A DNA stretch of 64,000 nucleotides from Cristatella mucedo (taxonomy: Eukaryota; Bryozoa; Phylactolaemata; Cristatellidae): assembly GCA_009760855.2 (NCBI GenBank), contig WPIO01000145.1, positions 521,001-585,000 of the forward strand, given 5' to 3'. The notes below the pieces were generated by a model, which saw only the letters and a list, made by a program, of their open reading frames with translations, was not told the origin of the DNA and ran no database searches. Both the position numbers and the translations under genes were made by a program. Positions 3,882-64,000 of this stretch are shown here, one piece after another (position 1 is the first letter of the stretch; each line of letters opens with the position of its first letter).

Positions 3882-5379
3882 GAGCCAGCGCCGTCGATAT
3901 CCGGCAGTTCAAACTGTCGCCGGTCCTGCTCGAGGGTTGGCTAGCCGGCTTTGCTGGCTCGTTTGCAGGATAATGACATCCTTCGCAGGGCCAACGAGGC
4001 GCTTATCCGCGAGAACGAGAGACTCAAGACGGAGGCGACTTCGGCGAGCACTGCCGCCTGCTCTCCGAGCCGGTGAGCCGGCGGCCGGCTTCCTCACAGC
4101 CGGTCACCACGCATTGGCTGCCTCGGCTGCTCCAGCTGCAGACCTGGGGTGGGGGTGCAGTGCTGTCCCGGCTCAATGGGCAAGACAGCTACAAGCAGCA
4201 GCAGCGGAAGCGGCGCCTCTCTTTTGGTGCGCTTGTTCCAGGCCTTCGCGATTCACCGTGGCGGCGCTGGAGTCGCAGGTGGAGCGGCTTCGCCGCGAGG
4301 CGGCCGCCCTAGAGGAAGCGCTCGAGTTGAGCGAGAGTCGAGAGCAGCAGCTGCTGCAGGCGGCTGCACTGGCGGCCGCAGCGGCGGTCTCTTGCAGCTG
4401 CGCCTCGCGCAGCAGCAAGCGAGATGCAGCAGCTGCTGCTGCTGCTGCTGCTCCACCGGATGCACGATCGCCAGCACCTGTCGCATCGACTGCGGCCAGC
4501 GGCCTGGATCCTGTCATTGCTGCCACTGCCGTCTCGCCGGCGGCGGCGCCGCCAGCCGAGCTGTGTGGCGGGCCACCTTCGATTTTATTCACGCGCTCTG
4601 TCAAGAAGAAGCTCTTCTTCGGCGACTCTACCGGCTCTTCGGCAGGCCTGCTCGGAATCGAGTCGAGCCCGCCGTTGCTGCCGCCGCAGCACCCATCGCC
4701 GCTGCCCGGCAGCGCCGCTGCCACCGTTGTGCACCCGTCAAGGACGGGTCGGCTCGGCTGCCGACGCGGAGCTGCGGCGGCGGGCGGCGATGACGGCTCC
4801 CCGTCGCCTGCCAAGAAGCGCTCGAGTGCTGCTAGCGATGTGACGACCTTTTACGGCGGTGTGCCGGCCTGCACGGACGCTATGCGCTTGAGGGAGCGGG
4901 CCGTCGATGGCGACAGCGAGTTCAGCCTTGATCTTCCCAGCCCAGTTCTTCCATCCACGCCTCTCAAGCGCCTGTCTCTGGCGACGGATTCGTGCAGCAG
5001 CAGCCCGTGCAGTAGCAGCCCGAGACGGCCGCTACTCAGGTTGCTGCCAGCGGCGAGCTCCTCCGGCGTTCGGCTGCCGAGGCCGGCACTCACCGGCGGC
5101 ACGGCCGAGGCGGAGCTTTCTTGCAGCTTGACGCGGCTGCTGCCCGATGGCAAGGCTCCGTCGGGCGTGACAGCACTGTCGTGTGATCGTGACGTGATAG
5201 CAGCTGACAGTATCGTCAGCTCGGATGCGGCTGCTGCTGCTGCTGCGTCGGCCGAGCTCGAGCATTGGAACGTCTCTGCAACAGAGGAGATGATTGGCTG
5301 CATCATGCTGCTCAATGCTGCTGAGAGCAAGGTCCTTCGATCAGGCAGCGACCTCGGCAGCAGCAGTAGCCAGCTGTAG
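3882..5379 (+). CDS. Uncharacterised coiled-coil / leucine-zipper protein (3' exons)
   Basis: Three exons fit together in phase: 3882-3935, 3969-4072 and 4242-5379 (stop TAG). The two later splice pairs use good GT-AG sites (CG|gtgagc and cttgttccag|G). The second exon encodes a heptad leucine pattern (ILRRANEALIRENERLK, leucines seven apart). The third opens with a second coil (ALESQVERLRREAAALEEAL), then low-complexity Ala/Ser/Pro sequence with SP and TP sites, and VKKKLFFGD, which fits the cyclin-docking pattern K/R-x-L-F. The pairing suggests a nuclear or cell-cycle protein, but I found no bZIP basic region and cannot name it. Upstream exons were not found. The first exon's frame is chosen only because its phase fits (EPAPS...). 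Coding is likely; identity is unknown. Confidence 0.6.
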
Positions 5380-8510: not shown

Positions 8511-11380
8511 CTAAAAATTCGAAAAAGTCATAGCCCTGTCGTCGTCGGTGTACACTGGCGTGAGGGTCGGCATCGAGCACTCATCGACGGCCGAAGACAG
8601 CCCAACGGCCGGCAGCGGCAGCTCACTGGACGCGGCTGAGGTGCCGCCGGCAGAGGCTGGCGACGCCGACCGCAGCGCCACCGGGGAAGAGCTGCAGCTG
8701 CAGCCGGCGTACCGCTGCTCCAGCCGCTGCAGCGGCGACGAGCCACACGAGCGATCAGCGGCAACGACGGCAACGTCGAGCTCGGGAGCAGTAAGGGCGA
8801 CCGCCTGCTGCTGCTGCTGCTCCTGCTCCTCCTCCAGCTGCTCCAGCGGTGGCTGCTGCCTTAGCCACTCAGCCGTCGGGCCGTCGTCGTCGACGACGAC
8901 GTCGCGCTGGGCGGCAAGCTCGGCGGCAGGCGACGCTGCAGCAGGCGAGTCGCCGATCCTGTTTGGGACGGCTTCACTTGAGCCATCGCAGGTCAGCTTG
9001 TGCTGCTGCTGCTGACAGTAGGCTAGCGGCAAGCTAAGCGGCAACGATAGGGTCAAGTTCTTGCGATTGCGCGACCTCGAAATGTCGACGACAGCCGAAG
9101 AGGAAGCGCAGGCGGCCAGTGGGCTCATAGCCGTCTGTTGCTGCTGCTGCTGCTGCTGCGGCGAGGTCACGAGGTCGCCGCACCAATCTGCCTGAGCAGC
9201 AGCTGCCACCGAAGCACCGCCAGTCGGGCTGGAATGGCAATCGTCCGACAAGGCAGCCGCCACCGCCGACCCGGCAACGGGGCGTTCGTCAGCAGCCGCA
9301 CACTCGGCGGCTAGCGAGGTCACGTGCAATCCCTCTGCGCTGCAACCGTCGAGCAGCTGACGACTGAGTCGCCGCAGCGGCACTGTGGGCTGCGCCACGT
9401 GGGCCGCATGAGCAGAGGCCAAGGTCAGCGAGGCGCTGGCCGCAGCCTCTGGTCCGGCGAGCAGCGCTGGCAGCTGCTCACCGGACGGGGGCGGAGAGCG
9501 AGCACTGCCGCTCGACCAGCCGTTGCCGTCCGATTTCTGCCCGTCGGCTGCCTCAGTCGTGGCGGGACTCGGTTCAGCCACAACTGCGGCTGTCACTGAT
9601 GCGCCGGCGGCACTACCCCTGCAACCGTCCGGGGCTGCCGCATCGCTCCTGATGCCCTCGACGGCTGCAGATCGGTCGTCGTCGGCGACTGCGCCACTCC
9701 TCTTGCAGCCTGCGTGGTCGGCGCCGCCATCGGGCAGCTCAGGTGTCACCCACCAGCGCGCGCGACCGTCGACCGTCGCCTCTGCCGCACGTCGTGGCTC
9801 ATCGATGGGCCGCCGCCGCCACTGCTCTTCGACCGATGCGTCGCTGCTGCTCCCCGCTGGTGGCGGCAGTGGCGCCTCCGAAGCCGGCCGTGCGTCCGGC
9901 GACGGCCTTGGCAGCAGCACGACCTCCGTCCTGATGCCGAGCAGGCGCCGCAGGCTGCGCGTGTAGGGCAAGATCTCGACCGGATCCACGAGGTCGTCGC
10001 GCTGAGCAAGCTCGGCGTTTGCGCTGCAGCAGCCGCAGTCGCTCGCGAGCGCCCTCAGGGCCGCGACCGACATGGCGCCGGGCGCAGAGCCGCAGGCAGG
10101 CACCAATCGCTCGCGGTTGATGAGGCTTCGGCTGTTGTGCACGACGTCTTGCAGCAGGACGAACTCGAACGAGACCCTGCAAGGCAGCGCTCGAGGTCGA
10201 AAGGAGCATCGCAGGTTGCAGCAGTGACAGCGAGCGCTCGCGGCTCGACAACGAGCAAGACTCCTCACAACCCGACCAGACCGCGCACCGGCAGAATTAG
10301 CACCCGTCGCGTGACGCGAACGAGTGCGCGGTGCCCGGAGAAGAGGCCGAGGGAAGAAGCGCTCGCGAGATGCGAGCCTGGCGCCGCTTGCTTTGCTCAC
10401 TTGCGCCCGAGAAGACTCCTCGCATGGCACGCCTAGCACGCCGAGTTCGAGAACGCGAAGGCAGCGCGCCAGCCCCGACCTTGATGCCGGGGCATCACTC
10501 AGATACACATGTCAGGAGCTGGGGCTGCCCGGTCACTATGTTATATATGTTCGCTCCGAGGCAAACCAGCAAGCCGATACCAACAACTGCCGACACAGTG
10601 AGCAGGGAAGAATATATGCCGACACAGTAAGCAGGGAAGAATATATGCCGACACAGTGAGCCGGGAAGGACGTCGCGGCAGCGAAGAAACTCACCCGGCT
10701 GCCGCACCGGTTTGCCTGTAGACGGGCAGATAGAAGCTGCTGAACTCGAACACACACCTGTCGGCTGCCTCCGGCTCGCTGCCGCCGGCTAGCGACGATT
10801 TCGTCCACGCCGCAGCTCGACCGTCGTGCGGACTGGCCGGGCGATCACGTGACACGACGCCTCCCTTGCTGCAGCGCGAGCCGTGCTCACCGCGTCTTGC
10901 CGCTGGGGCGTCGTCTCTGCTGCCCGTGCGACGCGATGACAAGGATCGGTCTGCAGCTCGGCTGCCTCCAACGGCGCCATCGCAAGCGCTTTGCCCACCA
11001 GCGCCGCCGCCGCTGACGTCGCGAGGCGTTCGCTCTCTGGGCCGGAAAGATAGGCGCTTTCGCCGCCGAAGCAGTAGCTGCTGCCTATGCTGCTGCTTCA
11101 GGGCCCGCATCGAGCAAGCCGGCGCGGCTTCGTCGCCCGATCTCGGCTGCTCGTCGCTCGAGACGTCGACGACCGAGCTGCTGAGCTCGTCAACACCGGC
11201 GGTGGTGGCAAGCGTCGGAGGCTGCCGCGATCCGCAGCCCGACGCTGACGACGAGTTTGCTGTCGGCTCTTCCGGAGCTGCCGAGGCGCGACAGGAGGCG
11301 GCGACCGAGCTTCTCGGTCGTTTCCGGTCGTCTGCTGCAGCAGCAACAGCGCAGCGAGCAAAGATTAGCGAAGGCGGCAT
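8511..11380 (-). CDS. Uncharacterised Gln/Ala/Ser-rich protein, two exons
   Basis: Exons 11380-10695 and 10176-8511 (stop TAG at 8513-8511) join in phase through a good donor (GCCGG|gtgagt) and acceptor (ccttgcag|G), giving 783 residues. The join brings together the protein's least repetitive part, FEFSSFYLPVYRQTG, then FEFVLLQDVVHNSRSLINRE and VDPVEILPYTRSLRRLLG, probably a folded domain. The remainder is low complexity with poly-Gln tracts (about 9160-9130, 8845-8805). I do not recognise the family. The start is uncertain: the frame is open up to 11569, and an acceptor upstream of 11380 is possible, so the gene could be the 3' part of the next minus-strand gene. Coding is likely; function is unknown. 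Confidence 0.6.
10589..10672. repeat. 29-bp tandem repeat, about 3 copies
   Basis: The unit begins gccgacacagtgagcaggga and ends agaatatat. It is repeated about three times with single-base changes, inside the intron of the minus-strand gene at 8511-11380. Confidence 0.85.
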
Positions 11381-11887: not shown

Positions 11888-20155
<8,268 letters not shown>

Positions 20156-20694
20156 CTGAAGCGAATGCAAAGAAGCCGGCTTGCACCACGCATGCGCGGC
20201 ATGAAGGCAAGGGCGGTTGTCGTGCCAGGGCAGCCTTTGCACTCCCTTCGACAAGGCGGCTCGTCGCAAATGCAAAAAGGTGACACAATGAGCGTCTCGG
20301 GTTGTCGGTACCGCAGAGCGGCCAGCTGCGCTCAAAAGGCCTTCGGCCAAACTCAATGGACGCCGGACATGCGGCCTGCGCAGCCGACGCACGACGACCT
20401 ACACCGAAGCGGAAGGAACACGGCGCGCCGTCCGCGGCAGCTTTTTCTGACGTAGCAGAGAAAACTAAGACACTGGCCTAGCCTGGTCAGTCGACGTTCA
20501 GAACCCACCCGCCCGGGAATCCGGGAGCAAGCGCCACCTGAAAACCATGCACGGGGAGAGCGCTTTCAGAGACGACGCCGACGACGAAGAGACGGCGGCC
20601 GCATGCCACCAGCAGCCACACCCAATGGCCACAGGCAGAAAGCGAGTTCACAACTGCAGGCTCGTTTGGAATCCGCCGGTTTCCCCCTGAGTCG
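20156..20694. other. Region upstream of the PLDLS exon
   Basis: The minus frame stays open to 20286, but a good acceptor at 20156 suggests this is intron or 5' UTR. GC-rich; no domain seen. Confidence 0.4.
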
Positions 20695-44144: not shown

Positions 44145-47100
44145 CTCTCCGTGGTCATGACAATTAGTGGGCTTCGACTGCTTAAGCAGCAACTATCACC
44201 GATTAAGCTCAGGGCACCATCTTTTAACAAGCAGATTTGAAGTGCCTAGAAAGAGATCTGAGTTCTCTGGGGGAGCTATATCAAATGAATTATTATTATT
44301 TCTATTATTATTTAAACTATCTGCACCCTAGTCAGCCAGGTTTCCCGTAAAAGTGTCTCAGCAGTCTCGAAAAAACTGCAAAATAGTTAGGTCGTGGATA
44401 TTTACGATTTATGTGACCAACTCCACTGGGAAGCGATTGACATTAGATAGGCACAGAGCAACCCAAGCCGGCAGCCTCCACAACTGCAGTTTCAGTGACA
44501 TCTGGGCCTGTTCAGGGGTGTTCTCTAAGCCATACACACTAAGCACGAATGTTATGCACAAGACCTTTTTTATTGCAGGCTCAAAGCCTTAGTGCACGAA
44601 AGCTTAGCAGGCTTTTTATATGCAATCGATAGCATTAACTGCCATTTCACTCAACCAAGAACAGCAAGAAGCTTAGCATAACATAACTGTAAGGACTGAT
44701 CAGGGAATGTGGTTTGTGTGTATGTGTGTGTGCATATATAAATTGCCCCACAGGGGCAGGGAAAAATAATGCGATACCTGACGTCAGTCTTTTTAAGATT
44801 TGGAGGTGGGCTCCACAGCTCCAATCGTAGAGGTCTTCTCTAGTTTTCGCCAGCCCTGGTTAGATATATTACACGGTATGTAGCCCAACCTTGAGAGGAC
44901 CATTCAGTTAATAAGTTCGATTGCTAGCGATTGTGGTGAGTAGTCCCAGGTTATGGTACTTTTGACTCACTCTCTCTCTCTTTCTCTCTCTGTCTCTTTC
45001 TCTCTGTCTCCCTCTCTCTCACCGTACTAGCAAGGTTTGAAGTTTCAATTTAGGAGTTTAACTGGTCTGCCTCGACCCGTTTTCGTGTCTTTGATAGGAA
45101 TAGTAGAAGGGAGACTGTGCGGTTGACGCACGGTGTTCCTAGATTGCTAAGGATCACCACGTCCTTCTAGAGTGCCTCTCATCTCGCCTGGGCGTCACTA
45201 GTACTGCACTGCAATGGTTCAGGTCCAGTTTCTGTGGGAGACTCCCGAGTGATGATGTGAATGGACAAAGATCATCCAAGGAGCCACTGAAGTATGGATA
45301 CCTCAGGGTTCTGTGCATGGTCCTGTTCTTTTCACAGTATATACTCTCCCTCTTGCCGATGTGATTGCCAGGCAAAATCTAGGCTTTCACTTCAATGCAG
45401 ATCACAACTCAGTTGTACCATTGCTTTGATCCTTCCCAGCCCTCTAGCACTTCAAATTCTCTCAACCCTCCTTGCTGCATATATTGATGACATCTGCACA
45501 GGGATGGCAGCAAAATTTCTTAAATCGTATGGTAGAAACCAACCTACTAGTTATGGGCAAACCAAGTGTGATTCAGAAATTGGTTAACTAACCCTCACGT
45601 TCTGCTCTACTAACATATGTCCTGTTGAATCTGCAAGAAATCCAGGTGTTCTGTTCCGAAGTGACCTTTCGTTAACGACCACATTAGTTCCATTGTCAAG
45701 CCTGTCTACTTTCAGCTACATAACATTGCTAAAATTCGGGCTTGTTTAGACAGGGATACAACGTCTTAACTGGTCCATGTATTTGTGATATCCTGTCTCG
45801 ACTTCTGTAACTCACTGCTTGGTCTACCGGCAGTGCAATCACGCGCTTACAGCTGGAGCAAAACTCTGCAGCTGCTAGGCTCGTCTGTCGTGAGCGTCGC
45901 AGTTGCCACATCACACCACTTCTTGCCAACCTGCACTGGCTCCCAGCCAAGCAATTCATAGACTTCAAGGCTCTGTCACTCACTTTTAGGTCATTTCCTT
46001 CTTTGGCTTCAGCTTACCTATCCGATCCACTCCCCCACCAGGCTAAGCATGATACCATTCGCTTTTCGGAATCTAATCATTTACCTTGTATAAACCTCAA
46101 ATCTTTTGGAGACCGTGCATTTAGTTCGTGTTCGCCCAAAGCCTGGAACTCGCTTCCGACTTGCATCACGACATCCCCTGACTTGTCCATATTTAAAAAG
46201 AAACTAAAATTCATGTATTTATCACAGCATTTAGTGGGTCAATAATTCGTCCTTTACCAGCTTATGCACGCTGACACTATGCATGCTGCCACTAACTATA
46301 TTTGCATGCTGACCCTGTGGATGTCACCTCTAACCACGTTATTTTTGTTGTTTATTCAGCATGCTACCACTCCTTTGCAGCAACTGTAAAGTGCCTAGAA
46401 AGAGAGTGAGTTCTTCGAGGGTGCTATAGAAAATGTATTACTATTATTATTATTATTATTGCTAGTCGCTAACCGTGTCTGGCAGGGATAGCCTCGCATG
46501 CTAAGAAGCTGTCTCGGGATCACTTGTTTTAGTCCAGCATGTAGAGCCCAAGTGATACAGATGTGTCCAGCGGTGGGAGTCTGTGCTTTGTGTCGTCAGC
46601 AGGTGTAAACTGTTGACCTCCTCTCTCCAGACTGCCAGCGCCTCGGTCCCTTCGACTGGCCATCCGTGCCGGTCCCTTCGACTGGCCATCCGTGTCGGTC
46701 CCTTCGACTGGCCATCAGTGTCGGTCTCTTCGACTGGCCATCAGTGTCGGTCTCTTCGACTGGCCATCAGTGTCGGTCTCTTCGACTGGCTATCCGTGTC
46801 GGTCCCTTCGACTGGCCATCCGTGTCGGTCCCTTCGACTGGCCATCCGTGTCGGTCCCTTCGACTGGCCATCAGTGTCGGTCCCTTCGACTGGCCATCCG
46901 TGTCGGTCCCTTCGACTGGCCATCCGTGTCGGTCCCTTCGACTGGCCATCCGTGTCGGTCCCTTCGACTGGCCATCCGTGGCGTCCCTTCGACTGGCCAT
47001 CCGTGTCGGTCTCTTCGACCGACTGGCCATCCGTGTGCGAGCATTTGATACATCGACAGCAGAGCATACAGTAACTGCTTTATGAGGCAAAAGGAGCTCG

Positions 47101-50005: not shown

Positions 50006-53000
50006 CTAACGCCGCGTGAGGAGCTCATCCAGCGATGGGCCGTGTCTGCCCATGGGGTCGTCATTGATGTAGAACATCGAGTCACCGACTATGGTAAACA
50101 TGATTACCCTGCAACGTGCCAGCAGCCTGAAGTTTCAGGAGCTTCACTCAGTCCGGCCCAATGGGTCGCGTCAACCTCCTTAGATGCTCATTGAGCGCAT
50201 ATGTACGTGGGCATTTACGTTATCACCGATCGTCACAGCCTCCATGCAACGAACGCCAGCACCAGCACGCCGTACCCGAGGCTCACCTATTTCTTATAAT
50301 GTGGTCACGCTCACGGCTTTCTTCTAATAAATCTTTATAATTGTCATTAGATATTACGACACCGTCGTAGTTAATGGCAATGTCAAGAATGAGCCTGCAA
50401 AGGAACAAAACCACGTGCACACACGGCGTCACAACAAATGAGGTGACCGGTGAGGTGAACTGCCTGGCAGCCGACTGACAGTGAGAAACATCAATCAGCA
50501 TCTTTATCGGCAAGTGGCATCTCAGTGCAGGTGCAGACGCCCCGTGGCCACTCTCCGGGAGCTCTTGCCAGCTTCGACTTTCTAGCATCTTGACTCAAGC
50601 TCCTAGAAACTTGACTCGAGCTCATACCGAGGGTCTGAGAAGGCCCTGCAGGTGCCGGAATGCACAAGCGCCGGGCGCACACGACCTCTAGCCAGTTAAC
50701 CAAACGATGCTGCCGATCCTCAAAAGGTTTTTGTCTCAAGTATTTAGATCAGCTACAGCATTAAACTAAGATCGTGTTGCGTCAGGTGTGTGTTCTGTGA
50801 CGTGTTCCAGGGTAAGGGAGTCATCGAGTGCATTAAGCACATGAGTCGGAGATACCCAATTGGTCTACCCGATCGATGACGGCTAAGACGATTGCAGCAA
50901 ACAGCAGGGCATCCATCCACCTACTTGTCATCGTAAGGCCTGATCGACGGCATGTTGGGTAACTTCTTAGATGGTTGGTAGGCAAGCATCCTCCTGCTAT
51001 GTAACTCATCTAAAATATGTGCATCACGTGTAGCTGGGTCCGTTTTACGATACATTGGCACAACCACCGTGATGTCTTTGTGACCTCTTCCAAGGAAGTA
51101 GTCGACACAGATTTTCAGGTTTCGGCAACGGAAAATACCATCGCCTTGGCTACAAAAAAGAAAAAGGTCACATAATCAGGCTAAAACTCATGTTTGCTAG
51201 TGCTTGCAGCCAGCTAATTGGATAGGTTTTATTATAGCGAGAAAAGGCAAAACAGACCAGCAGATTGACGCTTCCCCTTTATGCAAAAAGGCAGTATTTC
51301 AACATAGGCAAGTGGTTAAGTTTGCCTATGGCCACGTGATTTTACAGAAGCAAACGTGTGAGACGTAGTCGCGTCATGCAGAGAAATCAGGTAGGAAAAA
51401 AGCGTGGCCTTCAGCAGTAGATGCAAGTAATGCAGCAATTTCAAAATGCAGACACCGGAGGACGTCTGACGAGGGACTGAGCACAGAAAGCGAATTTTGC
51501 CTCGAGCTGAGCTGGGACCGATCTCACCATTGGGGATTGGCACACGACTAGCTTTAGACGTTATTTGTGTTAGCTGGCTCAGTCCCGGACCTGCTTTTTA
51601 ATGCGACATCAATCGGTCTCAATTCCCCATCCTTCCCCATGTCTCTTGCATTCATTTTCCGCCGGTATGTATGGGCAGCACACGTGCACAGACCTCATTG
51701 CCGCAGCCCCTTGCGAGTAGTGCTCACATGGATCATACCCAGACATTCGCTCCTTTTGTTCTCTTCGTAGCAGCTGACAAAAACCTCTTGCTTGAGCAGC
51801 CTCAGAATTCAATGAAAACAAAATAATACCTCAACATTTGGTGGCCGAATAAATATCTACCGGCGAGTTTTGCTGGACTATTCAGGTCTTGGATATAGGA
51901 TACGAAGTTTAAATGTAGTAATTATAATGGCAATTATAAAAAATAAGTATAGCTAAAAGAACTAAATCTTTCTAGACACTTTACATTTGGTGGAAAGCCA
52001 GCGTGTCAATTGGTCAGTGATAACAGGCACACTGTCAGCACGTATGAGCATAGGCAGAGCAATTCACACGAACCCAGCAAATGCTGTTAAGAACAGGTGC
52101 TTTATTTACTTCTTTTAAATGTCGAGGCATCAGGGAATGTCGAGCCGTCAGTAGGAAGTGAGTTCCAGGCTTGACAACTAACTGAAAGGCACGGTCTCCA
52201 TAGGATTCGAGGTTGGATAAAAGCACAGTTAAACGACTTGAGTCAGACGCGAGATTGGGAAGGTGCAAATCCTGATTAGGATATTTCGAATAGGTAGGCC
52301 GGAGCAAGAGAACGAAGGGCCCTTAGGGAAACTAACAGAACTTTGAAGTCAATAAACTGCATCTAGTATCCGCAAGTCTTGGCCTGAGCGATTTTTTTTT
52401 GTTCTGTCCCAAGTTAGCCTAGCTGCTATAACCTGCATCATGACACAACTGTACAACTTGGCATGTGTACAGACAAATGTACACATGCATGACATTCCAC
52501 ATAAAAGCCAAAGTTGAGGCACTAATTATCACCTTACAGCACAAGCAAGCACTAACCATAACAATAACAGACCCCTTAGGTTTAGGTACACTATATTTGA
52601 CAGGCTGGCCAATGAGATTTTACTATTGATATGTAGGCTCTGGAATCTCCCACTGAGATAAGACATAAACCATTGCAGTGCTATGCCAGTGAGACCCGGG
52701 CGAGATGAGAAATGCACGAGAATGACTTGGTGATCAATAGGATCAAACGCTACCGAAAGATCAAGCAGAACAGAGATCAGAGGTACTCTACCCAAGTCAG
52801 CAGTCCCGGCGGTCGTTATATATGAGCAGCACTGCTGGGATTATGCAAAATGATTAGGGCTAAAACTTAATCAGAGCTTCCGTGATAGGCTTGCAGTTTA
52901 TAAGTAGGAGTTTTAACTGCTCTGCTATTACTAGTTCCAGTGTCTTTGTTGGGAATGGCAATAAGCAGACAGGGCAGAAGTTGATCTCTTGAATAAGGTC

Positions 53001-56000
53001 GACTTCTTAAAGAGTTGCCCAACAACATCTTTGAATGATGCAGGATCAAGATTTGAAGCTAAGGACACATTAATTTTGTTATGTATGCAGGGCAGCAGCA
53101 AACAATAGGCTGCTTGCTTGCTAATGACGAAATCATGCCTCGAATGCAGTCAGCGCCCTGCCCTCTAGGCAGCCGGCACGACATCGCTGGCCATCCAGCA
53201 TTCCCAAGAGCCAAGGCAAAGGAAGTAGCACTTGTTACCGGTGTTGAAAACTTAACTGGCCGAGGCATCCTCGCTGCCACGCATCCTAAACTAAAAAGTC
53301 CTCCGAGAGAAAGAGGTGACGCTTGACGACTACGAGGAAAGCAGCTCTCGACCTGCTTCATGATTGCAGAAAAGACGACGAGAGTCTGTGTGAAACTGCC
53401 GATCAGCTAAAGCTGCTTTTACACGGCATAATTTCCTCCTGACCGATGCCGATTTTCTTCCTGGTTAGGACGGTTACACGACCAACGATTTGATGACCGA
53501 CTTAGTCCCACCCACAGCTTGTGCTCTGATTCGGGAGGCTGGTATTGAAGAGGGTTTCCCCAGAAAGATGCCAAGCCATAACCTGCAGAAGTATAAGTTG
53601 AGTTCGCAGCCGAAGTCATCAATGTAGAGTTGCATGAGAGGAACTATAAACCACTAAAATAAGCATATAGAAAAGCTTTTTCGGGAAAGTGTGCAGTACT
53701 AAGTAACGTGTACCGTTACGGGTGTGCGGATGTATAGTGCTAAGAATGCGCGCCGTTCCGTGTTTGTTGGTGGATTTCATAAGCAGACACACGTCATACA
53801 TGTAGAAAAGGCCCGAGCGTTGGCTACAGCCCACTAGCATCCCATGTTCAAAGACTTGCTCTGAACGCCTCAACATAACTCGAGCCTACGAACGTCAGCC
53901 ATTTTATTTTGACCGTGGAGTGTACTTGCCGAGCCTAGGAGTTTAATTGGTCGGCAGGATCAACAAGGAGCCAAAAAGTAGAAATAGGTTTTCCAACATG
54001 AGAGTCTGCCGACTTGGCTCCTCTCCCAAAATGTGGGTGTGTATGGTAACTCGGTAGCCCAAATCTGTATGACATCTTTGCAGCAAATGTAAAGCGCCTA
54101 GAAAGGGATTGAGTTCTCTGAGGGTGCTTTATCGAGTGCATCATTATTATTATTATTAAATCGGTCAAAAATCTGGGCCAACTTTGGAGGAAATTCTGTC
54201 CAACGCAGCTTTGTGCCCACAAACCAACACCGACTAGCCAGTCGCCGGTTTGCCAGGGCCGGCCGCCAAGAGTGGATACCGACATAGCGGCTTGCGCACG
54301 GTCGCTCGCTGTGTGAGCTCGCGCTACTTACTACATGGCGACATTGCTGCCGTCAACGACGATGTGCCGTAGATTCTCTGCTGGGCTGGTGCGTGAGTTC
54401 GACGATGGGCCACTGGGGGCGGCAGCAGTCGGAAGCCGTGCAGCAATGCTCTGCCGCTGCTGCCGCTGCCACACACTGCTGCCACTGCCCACATTGGCAG
54501 CCGACTGAGAGCTGGCGGTGGCGGCAGGCTGAAAAGAGTGGCAGCACAAGTGTGCAAGGGTAAGCGAACCCGGCAGCACCACCAAACTCCGTTCAATCTG
54601 TGTTCCCTTTTGCCTTCTAGGACCGCGAGTGGGCTGCACCTCTCAGACCAGCAGCACTCAATGGCAGCAGACTGAATGTTCGGGTCAGACACCACGAGTG
54701 GGAAGGAATCATAAATATTTTGCATATCGAGCTGCTTCTCACCGTCATTGCTTACTGGGGGGGATACACGTTTGTGGGGGGATATAAATACCGACCCTTG
54801 TCTATTTGCGCTAAAGAGCCGCTTGAAGACTTACATCTAAGGGTTGCACGCAGGTCAAGGACTTCCCTTGAACGGGAGCAACTTAAGGCAGGCAGGCACA
54901 CAAATGACAATTACTGCTCACACGATGGAGTGAAGCAGAAATATCACACTCCAAGCCAAAGTGTGAAATGTAAGAGCCGAACGAAAATATATCGCCGACC
55001 GACCCGATTCACCATGTTGGTGGCAGAAGCATCTAGCAGCTGCTGCTGCTGCCTTTTCAAGGCAGTCATGAACTGCTCGTGTGATATGTCCTCGCCCAGA
55101 TCGGCGATCACTGCGCTTATGTCGTCGTCGGTGAATCCCATCGTCTTGGCAAAATCAAATATGTCTACAATGCATAAAGCCGGGGGCAGTCAGGCACTCG
55201 TGGAGAATTCCAGCCACTGCCACAGGTTGCAACCAGCAGTCACCATTACCCCGGTGGTGCTCTGCCGAAGATCCGGCGAGGATCGAGCCTCTCAAGCGCT
55301 GCCGAGCCTAAGCCTCCATGGATCGAAAGCTGAAAGCCACTTCGATCGGCCGCCGCATGCTCGAACGCGATTTGGGGCAAATTTCTTGGCAGATCGACAT
55401 CGATCGGCGGCCACCAGCTGTAGCCACAATTTTAGATCGGAATGCTGAGCCCAGGCAGCTAGCAGACCTTAGGCTAGCTAGCACACACTTAAGAATTCGT
55501 TACAGCTGAAATTCATAATAAGATTCGGCTTGTGCTATACTGTTGGGATGACAGATACGACCGCTCGACCACTTGACATGGAGTTCGAAGGGTCCCAGGC
55601 AGTCAAGCATAATAATAATAATAATAATAACAACAATAATACATTTATATAGCGCCCTTAGAGAACTGAATCTCTTTCAAGGCACTTTAGAGATGCGGCA
55701 TAGAAAGCCTTACCAAAGAATTGGTGGTAGCATCTGTAAGTAGCAGGCATAGTGTAAGCAGGTATATGCACACGAAGGAGGAAACACAAACACCCACCAA
55801 ATGCTGTAATCAACAGGTGCGTTTTAAGCTTCTTTTTGCATGTGGTCAAGTCGGATATATTACCAGAAGCCAAGCAGGCGAACTGGCTCGAGTTCGAGTT
55901 CCAGTCGGCTAATGGGAAAAGAACGCCGGATATCTGTCCAGACGAGGCCTACCCAAGCAAACCCACGAAAATGCTGGCGGTGCAGAAAAAAGTGCTACAG

Positions 56001-59000
56001 CATTTGGCGCCAGCATATGGCAAGTCTGCAGCCACCTGCAGCAGGCCAACGCAGACGACTAGTCCAAGGAAGCGCAAACGCTGCGGCACTAACACACACC
56101 CTATGAGAGGGGGGCTCGCGAAGTGCAGCATTCGAGGCACGAAGTGTGGCTGCACGAGAGCGCCCGGTGCTAGCGCTAACAGCCTCACCCGTACTCTTCT
56201 TCGACGAGGACGATGCCGCCGACCCAGATGTGCTGCCAGGCTTGCCCTGTCGAACCTGCCAAACAGACCAGCGAGTGCTCAGTGGGCATGCCGCTCAGCG
56301 CGCGCCAGGGGGTAGGTGAGGTGTTTTCGCCTAACAACCCAGGCTATTTGCTCCAAACCGGTGGCACTCGATCCTCAGCCCCCCTCGTGCAAGCACAGAG
56401 ACAGCTTCTAAAGCTCTCCAGCTCCTCTGTACGTGAGGCTGCTGCTGATTCAACCAATCTTTGCTTTGTACCCTACTTTTACCATGAGAAGGCCCAACCA
56501 CCACTCTTGCGCACTGTTAAGTGTGAGAAAGAATATAACTCAGAGAAGCAGTAAGTATACATCTACAGCAGAGAAGGCTAGTATTGCAACACTTGAATAC
56601 TTGAATATATGCTAGGCAATTTCAAGTTTCCTCGTCATCAGCTGCAATAGCAATAATAAGTTGCTTGTATAGCGCCCCGTGAGAACCAACTTTTTATCCA
56701 GGTGCGTTAAACTTACTGCAAAATTATAGGCAGATATGCAAAAAACTGTTTCTGTTACCACAAGATCACTCACTTCAAAATTGTACAATTTATATACACT
56801 TACTAGCATCTCTGTGAGGTCTTTTACAGCTTTGCTTTCTTAATGGAGTGCCACTTGATAAGATCGAGTTTGACGATAAAAAGCATTGCAGGTTAGCTAT
56901 GGCTCGGAAACATCTCCACTGGCGATTGAACGACACAGCTGGCTGCATGCAGCAGTGGCCACAAATGTTGTTTTTTTATACTATCTTGCAGCACCCAGAT
57001 AGCTTCTCAGATCTCCGAGTTGCTGCCTCAGGCAAGAAGAACAAGTGTTTCTGGCAGTGATGGTCATAGAAGAGCTAGTTTCAAGCTGATAGCCATGATG
57101 CATAATACAGCGATGTGGTCATCCTCAGCTTAGGCACATCGCCTTCTCGTAATCCTAAGCATCAGCAATGCTTAATAATAATAATACTAGCTAATTTAAT
57201 AGCCTCTTTTATATAGCGACAGAAGAGCCTTTACAGCAATCACCACCACTTGCAGTGGCGATAAAGGATCGCCCACCGCAGAATTCGAACCCATGACCTC
57301 GGGACCTCTGTCGTGAAAAGCAACCAGCTTATCCAGTGTGCCATCACGACTCATTGCATCGTTAAGCATCATACGAAAATGCTTTCAACATCATCAAAGA
57401 GGTTGGCAATATCAAAAGAAGCTATTCTAGAGTGCTTAAAAAAAAGACTAGACCGCTATGGTCTAGTGAAAGCTCTAAACATGAGTAATAAGGTCAATAG
57501 TTTCGGTTATTTGCATGTGTGTCATTCAAATGTAACTAGGCAACGAAGTTTACTCTGATGTATAGAGCAAGAGCTCTTTTACAGCATATGTGAAGTGCGC
57601 AGAAGAGATTAAGTTCCTTCAGGGTACCGTACAAAGGTAATAATAATATTATCATTAAGAGCTTGAACACCTTGCACCACGACACCTCTAACGTCGCTGT
57701 AATGCTACACCAATTAAAGCGATGCTGGCTATTTTCCAACCAGACCTCTATATACAGTGCTGGCTCGAAAAATCTATGCACCGAGGATCGACCTAATCTC
57801 TGATAATCCAGTTTGTTCATGAACTCCAGGCCAAATTTCGCCGGAGCATATGATTTGCACGAGTTAGCAATATCTGTCTAGGTTTTTAACTATCTCAGTT
57901 TGATAAAAGCATGCACTAAATTAAACTAGTGGCTCATTATTTCAGGGAACACATTAAAATCCATTCAGGTCACAATTGTTTTGGTATATCATATGTTTGC
58001 CAAGATTTCTAAAGCAGTGTTGTAGTGCTCTATGGCTCTTTTTTCATCACGAAACGTAGTGAGCTGGTTTCTTGCTCTAACTGTACTGCCGATTTCTTGC
58101 ATATTCTCAAGCCAGATTTGGCCTGTGTATGTGTAAGCATAAAACGAGAAATTCCCCAAAACAAGTGCCTGACACAGTTGTTAAAATACATGGTGCATTT
58201 ACTGCTTCATCTTAATAATCTTACTCTGTGGTAGCAAAAACTCTGCAAAGTTTCAGATTTCTATTATTTCCCATGGTGCGTCGATTTCTAACAGAATCTC
58301 TGCTTTATCTTCACATAAGCCAAAGGGCTCGAGCCCACGGCCTCAGCCGTCAAAGGCTAGCACCTTAACCTCTGGGCAAAACCAAGACAAGATCTGTTAC
58401 AAGGCGTGCTGCCGCTGACGATTGAACAGCAACTAAATTCGGCCAATCGAGTGATCAAACTGGCAGCACTTACAGCTCCCACGGTGGGTGGCTGCACAGA
58501 CTCAGAGCCTCCAGTCTTGCTCGTGGGTGGCACCAGAGCAATTGGAGTGCTGCCACGTGGTTTCTGCTGCTGCTGCTGCAGCGGGGCTGCTGGGATGCTG
58601 CTTGCCTGCTTATCACCGTGCAGTGCCGAGCTCGGCTCTTTGCTTCCCTTCAAGTGCCCAACGGTGGCAGACAGTTCTGAAAGAAGAAAATGGAAATCCT
58701 CCCAATAAAAGGGTGCCGAACCTGAGTCTCAAGGCTTTCTTCGTCCGCAGCCAGGCTCTGCCACACCCACCCCCTTGCTCTTGCCTGCACAGCTGACCTT
58801 CCGTACCTGACTATCTTTAATGCTATCACACCCCGACTATCTTGCATGGTACATCAAGTATCACGTCTCCGCATCCTTTACGAACAAATGTTATTAGAAG
58901 AATCACCATGGTGAGAGCCAAAGACGCAACCGAAAGCAATTATACTGTCATGCTGACAACGACTACATTAATTCATTGCCCAGCCGGCTTGCTGCTTTGT

Positions 59001-59603
59001 ATTTGAGGGTCAACAAATGCTAAGTCAGGTGCTGTTAAATATAAAAGGTCCGCTTCCATCACGTGACGTGCATCAATAGCTTGATTTTTTTTTATTAAAT
59101 ATGATTTCCAGATATGCCACTTGGTATTGGAAGGCGAATTGCTGACAAGTGGAAAATCTACTGAGCCTCTCTTCATGTATTTAGAGTAATAATACGATGA
59201 TAAAAATTTCTACAATTCCCTAAGAGAACCAAACCTCTTTTAAGGCATTTTTAGAAATGCTTAGAAAGCAAGCTTGTCAACTAAGCAGCACAACGACTTC
59301 AGCAAGCATAAGCACACTGGCGACAATCCACATGGTCGAAGCAAATTTATGTAAAACTGTTCAGCAAGCCTACAAAAACTGCTAGCATGCATCTTCCAAA
59401 CGAAGCTTAGCATCGTACCATCTGCTCATCTGCACCTGTTCCTCACAGAAATTCTTGGGTCCATGGCTATTGTCATTTGTGCACTTACGTGTGCTAACAC
59501 TGTGCATGATGCCGCTAATAAGATCAACATGCTTCACATACAGCACGTCTAAAAAGCCCAGAGAAAGATTCGGGTCTTTGAGGGGCTATACAAATGTCTT
59601 AAT

Positions 59604-59636
<33 letters not shown>

Positions 59637-62066
59637 AATAATAAAACACAATCACAGGTTGCAGCAAACCAACTCCTGCATCCCTGCAATGTGTAAAGTG
59701 CACACCACCTCATGTCTCAGGTTTACAGTGGGAGACAAGTTGGGATTGAGGAGTAGTCACACAAAGAGTCAGTCACACAATGCTAGAAAACAATCACAGG
59801 TCACACGGCTTCGGGAAAGGCTCACAGTGAGCACGGCTTACCTTTATTGACAGCCGGATGATCATCTCGAAGCAGCGGAACTTTGAAGTTACCTTCCACC
59901 TTCCTGCTACTCGGCAGCTCAGACGGCGGTGGCATGGCCACGCTGTTAGGCTGCAGAAGCAGCTGCTGCCGCTGCTGCTCGTTTGGTACGAAAGATGCGC
60001 TTCTGGCAGCAGCTGCCGAAGAAACCTGGTACAACGGAGCAGCAACATCAATATTGACCCAGCCACTGGCAGGAGACCGACCACAAGTAGGAGGAACAGG
60101 ACACAGGACTGTGTCGCCAGGTGGCTGCAGCCAAGATGACCAGTCGCAGTGCTGCGAAAGGGAGAAAAGAGAAGAGAAAAAGAGAATGATACCAAGAGCA
60201 GGAGGCAGAGCAGCCTCCGTGCCGTTCGACATCGGCAAAAAGGAGCCAGTACAGAAGGGCACGAAAAACTCGGGAGTCAATTATCTCCATTTGCCTCTTC
60301 TCTCAATTTCCGGGGGGGGGGTGTGGTGGTGGTGGTGGTGTAGTACTATCTCCCTGAAGCCATCCACGAAGCAACTTGAAGTGACTGGCAACTCCCTACC
60401 GGATTGGAAAAAGCGTGGGGGGGGGGGGTGGTGGGGGGAAGAGAATGAAAGCAATTACCCACGCTGGCAAAGCAGTGGCTACGAGCTGTGCCCTGCCTTT
60501 CGGCATATGGTAGGTGCAAGTGGCTAGTTTTGCATGCTGCCTGTAAGCCTTCTTTTCCATCTAGCTAGCTGTGCACGGCAGCGGGCTGCAGAAGAAAGCG
60601 GTGGCCTGTGGTTAGGCCTCACCGGCACGGCCATTGGGAAATAGCCATGCGTGGCAGTGCTCCGTCCTAGCGAGCAACTGAACAGCATGCAAACCTCTTA
60701 TCTCATCGATTGCCTGTACTTTACCTGATCCGCAGTGGCCGTGTTCTGTGCGCGCAGAGCCTTCAGCTCTCTCATGAAGTCGGCAGGCCGTGCACTGCTC
60801 CCCAGCACACGGCAGACGGCTTCAATCTCTGCCTCACTGTATCCCTGCATCCGTGCAAAGCTGGCAACGTCTGCAAAGGGTAACTCGCGTGACACTAACC
60901 TGACATAAAACTGGCTAGCTGCCATCAGTCGCCAATTCAAGCGAGAGTCATGCAACGGCAACAGTGCTGCCCACTACAAAGAATGCAGCATGACATACGC
61001 TTCCGGCCAGACGAGTAGTACACATGGCAACTAGGCAGACCGAATGGCCCTACATCGGTAGCAGCCAGAGAGCTCACTCGAATACGGCTGCTGCAGCTGT
61101 CACTACGGTGTATCTGCAGGCGTTCATCTCGTTAGTGACTGCATCCAGTTACTACTCTGATGCCAGCGTCTTGTTGGCAACAGACGTCTGCCTGCTGTCT
61201 CCGAGTCGAAGAGCAGAACACTTGACAGCACACTGGGTTTTTTAACCTTATAAGTTGTCCAAGATTTAAGTTCCCAGTGGGTACAGAACCGTTGTCTAAG
61301 TACCGGCAGGGCAGCACTTATCTAATGTGCTGCACAACCGGAGAGGCAAAAGTTCACGTGTAGTTTAATTTCTGAGTGGGTTTCAGTATGTAGGCGACAT
61401 TACAAATGACTGACGGCATGGACTGGGAAGGAAAGCAGATTCGCGCATTACACAATAAAAGCTTCGACGTGTCGAAGACTAGTCCAGACTTGCCCAGATT
61501 TTTGGTTCAGAGACTTTTTCCAGATGCTATACGGCAGCTAGATTGTGCTACTACTACAGTCAGACGAATCTTTGCACAAAATTACGAGTACCTAGCCTTG
61601 CATAGACATCCACGTCTGCAGCAGAATTTAACGAACCTGCCTAGATGCTGATCCTCCAGAAAGCACGGTATTCCGCTGACCGGCAGGGGGCGGCGGCTAA
61701 AAGCTGCACACTATGCTGCTTTCGGGTTCGCTTGGCTAGAAAAGCACGCAAAGAGCCAGCAGTCAATGAGCTAGCACCCAGTTAGCTAAGGAGACAAAGC
61801 ACTCGGCAATATAGCAATACATGGTGACTGCCATCCACCTCGCAGCTCATGATATGCATTCGCACGGTAAATTCATACTTTTGTACTTGTCCTTTAGGTT
61901 TTGGCCATCAGTACTGACTAATTTTACAAGAATTGTTCATTTATCGACTTTTGTGTTTTGATTTTGAACCTGAAACCTAACCTAGTAAAAAAAATTATTC
62001 TACTAGAAAATGTGCGCAGAACACATTGCAGCAGAGCATGTGACAATCTTTCTTCTTTTCTGTCTC

Positions 62067-62155
<89 letters not shown>

Positions 62156-62850
62156 ACTACACCGAACAAGCATAAATATATACGCATAAAAAATATTATG
62201 TCAAGTGCCCAGCAAAAACTGTTTTCAAAATTCCTATGCCATGGAAGACTATGCATTACACCTAGTCACAAAAGTCAGCTATAGAAACCTCAAAGCATAC
62301 TAAATATGCTATAAGCATAACTTATATTATGCTTTAAGGAGGATTCATACAATTCCGAGGTTCTAATGTGCCACTAAAAATGGGGACAATGGGAAAGAAG
62401 ATGGCTGTCTGTGCTTTGAGGGATTTAGTCAAGTTTTTGGTCCGGGTCAGGAGGTGAGGCTTATGCTACACTAAATCACTCTTGCTGCTTGCTTGGAGTG
62501 GAAGCGCCGACCAACTGGGCATTTCTTTCCAGTCACATGCACACATGCACGAATGAACAAGCCTGTGTGCTTGCACTTGCAACCACACACACAAGCACAA
62601 GCACACGAGCACAAACAAGTGTGCGCACGCACACGGTGCTAGCATCTTATTTGCATTTATGTATTGCAACAAACAAGATTAAAAACATGAGATGAAGCTT
62701 AAAATTACACATTATAAACATATACGTCTTTACACAGTACAACATGAGGGCTGGCAGTAAAGATTTAGCAGCCTCAAATGTGGTTTACAAGGACTTACCC
62801 ATGTTTTTCGTTGACTTGCTAGAGAACGCCAAAACAGCCGGAATCGGCAT
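50006..62850 (-). CDS. NYN-domain ribonuclease with two UBA-like domains (Regnase/N4BP1-like)
   Basis: Proteins of the ZC3H12/Regnase and N4BP1/KHNYN group cut RNA with an NYN (PIN-like) domain. Ten exons join in phase: 62853-62799 (ATG at 62850), 60870-60725, 60151-59842, 58676-58474, 56255-56189, 55164-55013, 54528-54332, 51149-50925, 50394-50287 and 50108-50006, totalling 520 residues. Two UBA-like domains (about 18-60 and 260-302) precede the nuclease domain (about 363-518). Nuclease motifs are LRHIVVDGSNVAM (catalytic Asp369), GRGHKDITVVVP, RPYDDK, NYDGVVISNDNY and DDPMGRHGPSLDEL. All four acidic positions known to bind metal in Regnase appear to be kept. The protein stops right after the nuclease domain, so the CCCH finger of ZC3H12 proteins is absent. 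Linkers are rich in Gln, Ser and Ala. An upstream non-coding exon is possible, since the first exon has an acceptor 3 bases before the ATG. Confidence 0.92.
51930..53070 (-). mobile_element. LINE family 1, internally deleted
   Basis: On minus, a palm-domain piece (RVPLISVLLDLSVAFDPIDH, 52795-52529) with N-terminal flank up to about 53070 is joined to a C-terminus and 3' UTR piece that ends at about 51935 (signature tctttctagacactttacat). The middle of the polymerase, including the catalytic box, is missing. It lies in the NYN gene intron 7. Confidence 0.82.
53071..54065 (-). other. NYN gene intron 7 sequence
   Basis: No gene or known repeat recognised. Confidence 0.4.
54066..54160 (+). mobile_element. 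LINE family 1 3' tip
   Basis: Signature gcgcctagaaagggattgag and tctctgagggtgctttatcg, then attattattatta. Confidence 0.8.
55600..55870 (-). mobile_element. LINE family 1 3' end fragment
   Basis: Reversed tail (aataataataataataataa), then gcgcccttagagaactgaat and 3' UTR matching the subfamily at 2408-2650. In NYN gene intron 5. Confidence 0.8.
56645..56850 (-). mobile_element. LINE family 1 3' fragment, diverged
   Basis: A degraded signature (tatagcgccccgtgagaacc, tatccaggtgcgttaaactt) follows a short reversed tail. Confidence 0.55.
57195..57355 (-). mobile_element. SINE family 2
   Basis: Reversed copy: cgacagaagagcctttacag tail region, cttgcagtggcgataaagga, then cagaattcgaacccatgacc, the reverse complement of a tRNA box B. 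Confidence 0.72.
57575..57656 (+). mobile_element. LINE family 1 3' tip, diverged
   Basis: Contains tttacagcatatgtgaagtg, agaagagattaagttccttc, and a short aat-repeat tail. Confidence 0.6.
57840..58280 (+). repeat. Unclassified interspersed repeat, copy 2
   Basis: Collinear with 12750-13590 in the same orientation (see that entry). It lies in NYN gene intron 4, just downstream of the exon at 58676-58474. Confidence 0.65.
58322..58390 (-). mobile_element. SINE family 1 head fragment
   Basis: Reversed box B (gggctcgagcccacggcctc) and box A (cttaacctctgggcaaaacc), without the tail. Confidence 0.6.
59180..59300 (-). mobile_element. LINE family 1 3' tip, diverged
   Basis: Reversed tail remnant, then ccctaagagaaccaaacctc and ttttaaggcatttttagaaa. 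Confidence 0.55.
59400..59650 (+). mobile_element. LINE family 1 3' UTR with (CAA)n/(ATA)n tail
   Basis: Matches the family 3' UTR (tgctaacactgtgcatgatg) and a degraded signature at 59555-59590. The tail is replaced by CAA repeats (about 59601-59633) and then ATA. Confidence 0.7.
60871..62798 (-). other. NYN gene intron 1
   Basis: Starts gtaagt and ends ccctttgcag. It contains a (CT)n tract at about 62070-62150. No other gene was recognised. Confidence 0.6.
62070..62152. repeat. (CT)n microsatellite
   Basis: Uninterrupted CT repeat of about 80 bp in NYN gene intron 1. Confidence 0.95.
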
Positions 62851-62853
62851 GGA

Positions 62854-64000
62854 CTGCAAAGAGAAAATGGATTACAGTCAGGCCTAAAAACTGCTATTCC
62901 GGCAAACGAGCAAGCGAGTGACATGCCCTCAGCAGGTCGGTAACATGCATAGTTCGACTACAGCTTATCTGAGGCAAACCATCAAATGAATAACAAAGCA
63001 AAGGGACATACAGCACAAATGGCATATCAAGCTCGACATCAGCACGAGCCCATCTTACGGCCGCACGAGATGGCACGGCACAATACAAAGAAGGAAAAGT
63101 ATAGCCTGATAGCCCTTATGTCGGATTAAGGTAGCGCCAACTCCCCCACCACCTGCCCTGCCCCGTTGGAATATCGTGGTGCTAGAAAAAATAGAAGAAC
63201 GTGTCGTGCCACGGTACTCGGAACCAATGACCTCGAGAAATCGGCTGTCAGTCACACTGCCAACGTTTAGAGAGAAGCTAAGCAGAGTGCCAACGAACGT
63301 GTTAACTGACTTCGTCGAAAAATGACGACAAGCACAAAGGCAGTGTCAGCAACATGGTAGTGACACGGCTCAAGGACAATGGCAACAACTGGTCAGGGAC
63401 CTGTGTGCTTCAAACTTTGCACTCGAAGCCCGCCAGGCACTACGCTGGATGAGGCTACCCTCGGCTCTAGCTTCCGGCAGACGGAGGGGGAGGGAGGGAG
63501 GGAGAGCTGGCAGAGATAGCAGCTCCGGCTTCAGCCTTTTTTGCTCGCAAAGTGGGGCGGTGTGACGCTGCCCAGCCACTGCCGAGTCCCCAACCATCTG
63601 CCTGCTCGCACGCCGCTGGGCAGAGGACTCTGTACATAGCATCTCTATGTGTGCCCTTATGCCTCCATCGGGCTCAAGATGGTGTTATGTGTCCAACCAT
63701 CATCTACTGCCGTGTCTAGATCGATCAAAATCGACTCATAAAGTGGCTGCATTCTCACGAGGGTCGGCACAGTGTAGCTCTCGAATATTATTTGCTTGTC
63801 TCAGATTCATAAGGGAGAGAGGAAAGGAGACAGAAAGTGACAGAGAAAAGGAGAGCAGCTGGAATGGCGATACGACATTGCAGAAGCATTTTGTCAAACG
63901 CCTGAGTGCAAAAATATGTGCTTATGAGTCACTGTGCAGATACCCAGCAGAGGTTGCACAGTAAGCTGCACCAGTCCCCCTAAACCGTGCAATGTAAGAG
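62854..64000. other. Region upstream of the first NYN coding exon
   Basis: Probably intron, 5' UTR or promoter of the NYN gene. A GGGA-rich patch lies at about 63486-63507. No coding domain was recognised. Confidence 0.4.

Follow-up and report, generated by a model that had tools for sequence, protein, structure and literature searches.

Which kind of RNA-cutting enzyme is encoded on the minus strand of a 64,000-nucleotide stretch of the Cristatella mucedo genome (contig WPIO01000145.1, here C50, positions 521,001 to 585,000; the whole stretch is called the window below)? An initial annotation had described there a ten-exon gene for a 520-residue protein, in which two UBA-like modules precede an NYN nuclease domain and both a CCCH zinc finger and a visible KH domain are lacking, and had suggested that this combination might represent an ancestral or lineage-specific family member that links ubiquitin recognition to RNA decay. 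Our analysis indicates that the locus is very probably a gene of the N4BP1/KHNYN type of about 24 kb (C50:594930-571006, minus strand). Its product of approximately 920 amino acids would consist of a KH region (probably a di-KH), UBA-like module 1, UBA-like module 2 and the NYN domain, with no CUBAN/CoCUN domain at the C-terminus. The window holds the 3' part of this gene, about 14 of the 24 kb.

Gene model and KH exons upstream of the window end

Within the window, ten exon-like segments were rebuilt on the minus strand (62853-50006), with GT-AG borders at every intron, agreeing phases and a frame that is open over 520 amino acids and stops directly after ...GRHGPSLDELLTRR. With a consensus matrix, the splice sites were ranked against every GT or AG on the minus strand of the window. 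By this measure 18 of the 19 sites reached at least the 90th percentile and the acceptor of exon 10 the 79th. Exons 2-10, being open, in phase and bordered by GT-AG, are judged from their sequence to be genuine coding exons, and this part of the ten-exon model stands. On the minus strand, the intron that separates exons 7 and 8 carries a fragment (52529-52840) resembling, by eye, the reverse transcriptase of a long interspersed nuclear element (LDLSVAFDPIDH).

Further minus-strand exons were found 2-10 kb past base 64000, running in phase into exon 2. These four upstream exons occupy 586808-594930 of the contig and, joined to exons 2-10, give a predicted model of 13 exons with a single open frame of 920 residues in which all phases fit. 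Five of the seven splice sites added in this way ranked at the 92nd percentile or above. When exon 1 is inserted between the upstream linker exon (65808-66209) and exon 2, the reading frame shifts and runs into a stop at residue 428. Because KH exons lie upstream of the window end and exon 1 breaks the frame, the 520 amino acids are probably not the whole protein, for which the 920-residue model is the fuller prediction. Three readings of exon 1 are considered, namely an alternative 5' exon, an exon without productive use and an artefact of the model.

The joined KH peptide matched the Pfam profile PF23050 (KH_N4BP1_1st) with an E-value of 5.5e-8 and 33.2 bits (curated cut-off 27), and within the 920-residue protein the profile still reached 30.9 bits (2.8e-7). 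A search of 177,635 PDB sequences at E-values up to 10 returned four matches, the top three of which were di-KH structures, namely KHNYN (9cs9, 0.0014; 9hts, 0.0016) and N4BP1 (6q3v, 0.016). The matches span residues 4-90 of the 138-residue KH peptide, that is, KH1 and the start of KH2. An N-terminal KH domain of the N4BP1 type is thus predicted just outside the window, and the KH region is probably a di-KH. The earlier statement that no KH domain is visible holds inside the window only and, since the KH exons lie just beyond its edge, the supposedly new UBA-UBA-NYN combination is the rear half of an N4BP1-type architecture. A UBA-like domain ahead of the nuclease was moreover already known, as passages of PMC4772114 and PMC7226360 describe for Regnase-1 and passages of PMC9888277, PMC7925594 and PMC11997328 for N4BP1. 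What is corrected here is a misleading finding, in which a real gene clipped by the window edge had looked like a new domain combination. Rather than a new kind of enzyme, the gene encodes an unusual relative of the RNA-cutting enzymes already known as the N4BP1/KHNYN family.

Exon 1 might nevertheless start a free-standing 520-residue UBA-UBA-NYN protein without KH domain, the upstream KH exons then belonging to another gene or isoform. Such a product would fit the good splice sites of exon 1, its in-frame ATG and the open 520-residue frame, and an alternative 5' exon could yield an isoform of this kind beside the long form. It seems quite improbable, however, as the KH exons of the N4BP1 type share the strand of exon 2, follow the order of domains in N4BP1 and connect to that exon in phase. 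Furthermore, the 5' end of exon 1 as modelled is a splice acceptor, so that this exon by itself would not be a transcription start.

Table 1. Exons of the N4BP1/KHNYN-type candidate gene (window coordinates, also beyond base 64000) and related nuclease genes of the same genome.
Feature	Position	Strand	Remarks
Possible start exon, MPFEQ	73930-73916	-	upstream of window end
KH exon, first	73565-73383	-	upstream of window end
KH exon, second	70531-69880	-	upstream of window end
Linker exon	66209-65808	-	upstream of window end
Exon 1 of earlier model	62799..62853	-	55 nt; good splice sites; probably outside main coding chain
Exon 2, UBA-like module 1	60725..60870	-	
Exon 3, linker	59842..60151	-	no Pfam match
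Exon 4, Gln/Pro/Ser-rich linker	58474..58676	-	
Exon 5, Ser-rich linker	56189..56255	-	
Exon 6, UBA-like module 2 with MGF loop	55013..55164	-	UBA_6 match just below cut-off; three-helix model
Exon 7, linker and NYN start (LRHIVVDGSNVAMY)	54332..54528	-	
Exon 8, NYN core with DD pair	50925..51149	-	PF11977 1.4e-16, open frame of exon 8 alone
Exon 9, NYN, SNDNYKDL	50287..50394	-	
Exon 10, NYN end (DDPMGRHGPSLDELLTRR) and stop	50006..50108	-	no CUBAN/CoCUN or CCCH after NYN in exon
Ordinary Regnase gene	C55:6713263-6727530		UBA-like N-terminal domain, NYN in four exons, CCCH finger CPYGRKCTYGSKCKYAHP
Second NYN gene of window type	C665:6343355-6347299		NYN exon borders as in window gene; stop ...GRNGPSLDELLTC

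The NYN nuclease domain

The assignment as an NYN ribonuclease was borne out by a profile search, in which the 520-residue protein matched RNase_Zc3h12a (PF11977) with an E-value of 8.3e-48 and the 920-residue protein with 2.1e-47. The residues D141, N144, D225, D226, D244 and D248 (Regnase-1 numbering) are kept in the window gene and in the second gene of its type on contig C665, and at the position of R247 of Regnase-1 the window gene has a lysine. Over the NYN domain it is 72% identical to the C665 copy; the corresponding figure between human Regnase chains and KHNYN is 57-58%. The loop following the motif VPxxR is 3-4 residues shorter than that of Regnase in the window gene, the C665 copy and KHNYN.

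Comparison of the two bryozoan NYN domains of this type over 155 codons gave 0.17 nonsynonymous substitutions per site (dN) and 2.25 synonymous ones (dS), the latter being near saturation. The NYN domain is under purifying selection, and the low dN against a nearly saturated dS means that the nuclease was kept by selection and that the stop shared by the two genes is old. Judging from the sequence, the protein is most likely an active metal-dependent endoribonuclease that is steered by protein contacts.

UBA-like modules and the C-terminus

The two UBA-like modules reported initially were confirmed. Aligned to each other, modules 1 (exon 2) and 2 (exon 6) gave a score that was reached by none of 5000 shuffles, and both were predicted to fold into three helices, module 2 with a predicted local distance difference test score of 81.5. 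The UBA_6 profile matched the 520-residue protein with 22.9 bits (9e-5), just below the cut-off of 23.5, and the single modules with E-values of 0.033 (module 1) and 0.013 (module 2). Module 2 contains an MGF loop, through which UBA domains usually contact ubiquitin. In a PDB search with a profile built from both modules, the N-terminal domain of Regnase-1 (2n5j) came first of 14 matches with a non-significant E-value of 0.023. Module 1 was likest to this domain, no comparison being significant alone. The model predicts two UBA-like modules between the KH region and the NYN domain.

The absence of a CCCH finger was also upheld. Three strict six-frame matches occurred in the window, which contains no Ns, and none of them lay in the minus-strand sequence that follows the stop as far as position 16366, although a finger split by an intron would escape this pattern. 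The window gene and the C665 copy end at the same point, right after the NYN domain. According to passages of PMC9888277, a CUBAN-like domain is ancestral in N4BP1-like proteins and is seen in lancelets, echinoderms and molluscs, while section 3 of PMC7226360 gives NYNRIN as also missing the CUBAN tail. Present in N4BP1 and KHNYN and absent from their paralog NYNRIN, CUBAN/CoCUN is typical rather than defining for the N4BP1/KHNYN family. The bryozoan gene is unusual in having a second UBA-like module and in its apparent lack of a CUBAN/CoCUN tail.

Related genes in the same genome

The assembly searched comprises 572 Mb in 688 contigs. PF11977 gave six exon matches in three genes, namely the window gene, the ordinary Regnase gene on contig C55 and the C665 gene (Table 1). 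The C55 Regnase has a UBA-like N-terminal domain (UBA_6, 2.0e-9) and, following the NYN domain, a finger that in the joined peptide matches that of Regnase-1 (2n5k, 5.1e-8). Searches of the roughly 48 kb that precede the C665 nuclease gave no hit below an E-value of 2.8 for the UBA-like profile and none below 0.2 for the KH exons.

Could the window gene then be a Regnase (ZC3H12) paralog with its CCCH finger lost? The resemblance of module 1 to the Regnase-1 N-terminal domain would agree with this, as would the first NYN intron, which by eye agrees in position and phase with that of the C55 Regnase. An approximately unbiased test on the NYN domain, whose tree has six rows and does not place the gene, likewise did not reject a union with the genome's own Regnase (p 0.30). 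Nonetheless, such a paralog is highly improbable. The genome holds a separate full Regnase on C55, finger included, which also speaks against the loss of a finger by misassembly of a ZC3H12 gene, and this Regnase favours ZC3H12 proteins (298 bits to ZC3H12A when the query includes the finger, 259-265 bits to ZC3H12 chains without it, versus 167-169 bits to KHNYN), whereas the window protein scores both about alike (134.6-142.5 bits to ZC3H12 chains and 135.6-138.2 to KHNYN). In addition, a KH domain is no Regnase feature, and the remaining NYN intron positions differ from those of C55 by eye.

To our knowledge, RDE-8, NYN-1 and NYN-2 of Caenorhabditis elegans have no CCCH finger, and we know of no KH or UBA domain in them. 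That the window gene encodes an RNA interference (RNAi) nuclease of their kind, preparing templates for RNA-dependent RNA polymerase, is hardly credible: like it, they are Zc3h12a-like NYN proteins, with a role in RNAi according to passages of PMC6072111 and PMC12265681, but the window gene has a KH domain of the N4BP1 type, and the eukaryotic polymerase profile PF05183, which matched none of the control genomes either, had no match in this genome, while Piwi/Argonaute was found. The Piwi/Argonaute matches lie at several loci of the genome.

Comparison with N4BP1, KHNYN and Regnase

KH, UBA and NYN in this order is the domain order of N4BP1, as described in passages of PMC9888277 and PMC11997328. 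A figure legend of the latter lists ex-diKH, UBM, UBA, PIN and CUE-like domains, which implies that N4BP1 has two ubiquitin-type modules besides the tail. The predicted bryozoan protein shares with N4BP1 the first KH domain, a UBA-like part between KH and NYN, the position of the NYN domain near the C-terminus and a similar length (human N4BP1 ends at residue 896, as taken from the range of its CoCUN domain, versus about 920 here). It differs from N4BP1 in having two three-helix UBA-like modules and no C-terminal CoCUN. With KHNYN, whose di-KH was the best PDB match, it has the short NYN loop in common, and with NYNRIN (CGIN1) the missing tail. Mammalian KHNYN has lost the UBA-like domain, as stated in a passage of PMC9888277, whereas the window gene has two such modules. 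Regnase-1 to -4 (ZC3H12A-D) and the C55 protein resemble it in the catalytic residues and in UBA-like module(s) before the NYN domain; the window gene differs from them by its KH region, the loop deletion and the missing CCCH finger.

Several observations weigh against the assignment to the N4BP1/KHNYN type. By itself, the NYN domain is no closer to KHNYN (47% identity) than to Regnase (46-47% to ZC3H12A, ZC3H12C and the C55 protein), and the above test leaves a union with the genome's own Regnase unrejected. Several residues by which Regnase contacts RNA are changed (W182 to Y, R214 to K and R220 to S). Neither the second KH-like part by itself nor a chain lacking the first KH exon had a match in Pfam or the PDB. 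The splice junction that follows the second KH exon is weak, its donor (69880) ranking at the 88th percentile and its acceptor (66209) at the 63rd, and alternative acceptors exist for the exon starting at 66209. The 920-residue protein fits UBA_6 (0.00035) better than UBA_N4BP1 (0.24), both below cut-off. Finally, the model ends after the NYN domain without a CUBAN/CoCUN domain, for which no CUBAN profile search was made.

Proposed mode of action

As an N4BP1/KHNYN-type protein, the enzyme might work in four steps. The NYN domain would, given its conserved residues, act as a metal-dependent endoribonuclease. One UBA-like module might dock on the helix of the NYN domain that bears the DD pair and raise the activity of this domain, by analogy with Regnase-1, for which passages of PMC4772114 describe docking of the UBA-like N-terminal domain on the PIN domain and activation of the nuclease in this way. 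By analogy with N4BP1, which reads K63 and linear chains (passage of PMC7925594), the other module could bind ubiquitin chains or a ubiquitinated partner; module 2, which has the MGF loop, is the likeliest for this role. Since the di-KH of KHNYN does not bind RNA according to a passage of PMC11997328, the di-KH may be a protein-docking platform, whose partners would bring the enzyme to RNA. Should module 1 indeed be akin to the Regnase-1 N-terminal domain, one could test directly whether nucleases of the N4BP1 type are activated likewise.

It is also conceivable, though rather unlikely, that this nuclease of the N4BP1 type has lost its ubiquitin/NEDD8 reader at the C-terminus and has, in its place, two UBA-like modules of the Regnase N-terminal type ahead of the nuclease domain. 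If so, an NYN-clamped UBA-like module would date back to the ancestor that the N4BP1 and Regnase families share, ubiquitin reading would have shifted from tail to front in this lineage, and the C665 gene, perhaps a KH- and UBA-free nuclease copy, would have arisen from a gene of the window type. A lineage-specific variant is possible. With one Regnase and two window-type nucleases, this single genome lends itself to tracing how ubiquitin reading became linked to RNA decay.

Other features of the window and the assembly

On the minus strand, the long open stretches at 8526-10421, 4254-4811 and 4854-5366 show a codon use like that of coding sequence and have no Pfam match. The same holds for an open stretch of 1374 residues at 16108-20229 (minus), which has a PLDLSLK motif near its start. 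A tandem repeat is located at 46628-47079, and its plus-strand translation gives repeats like GPFDWPSVSVPSTGH. Outside the window, contig C688 (21,008 bases) looks mitochondrial, its COX1 being open under translation table 5. Partial COX1 matches were also present in C166, C83, C549 and C299, those of C83 and C299 with TAA stops.

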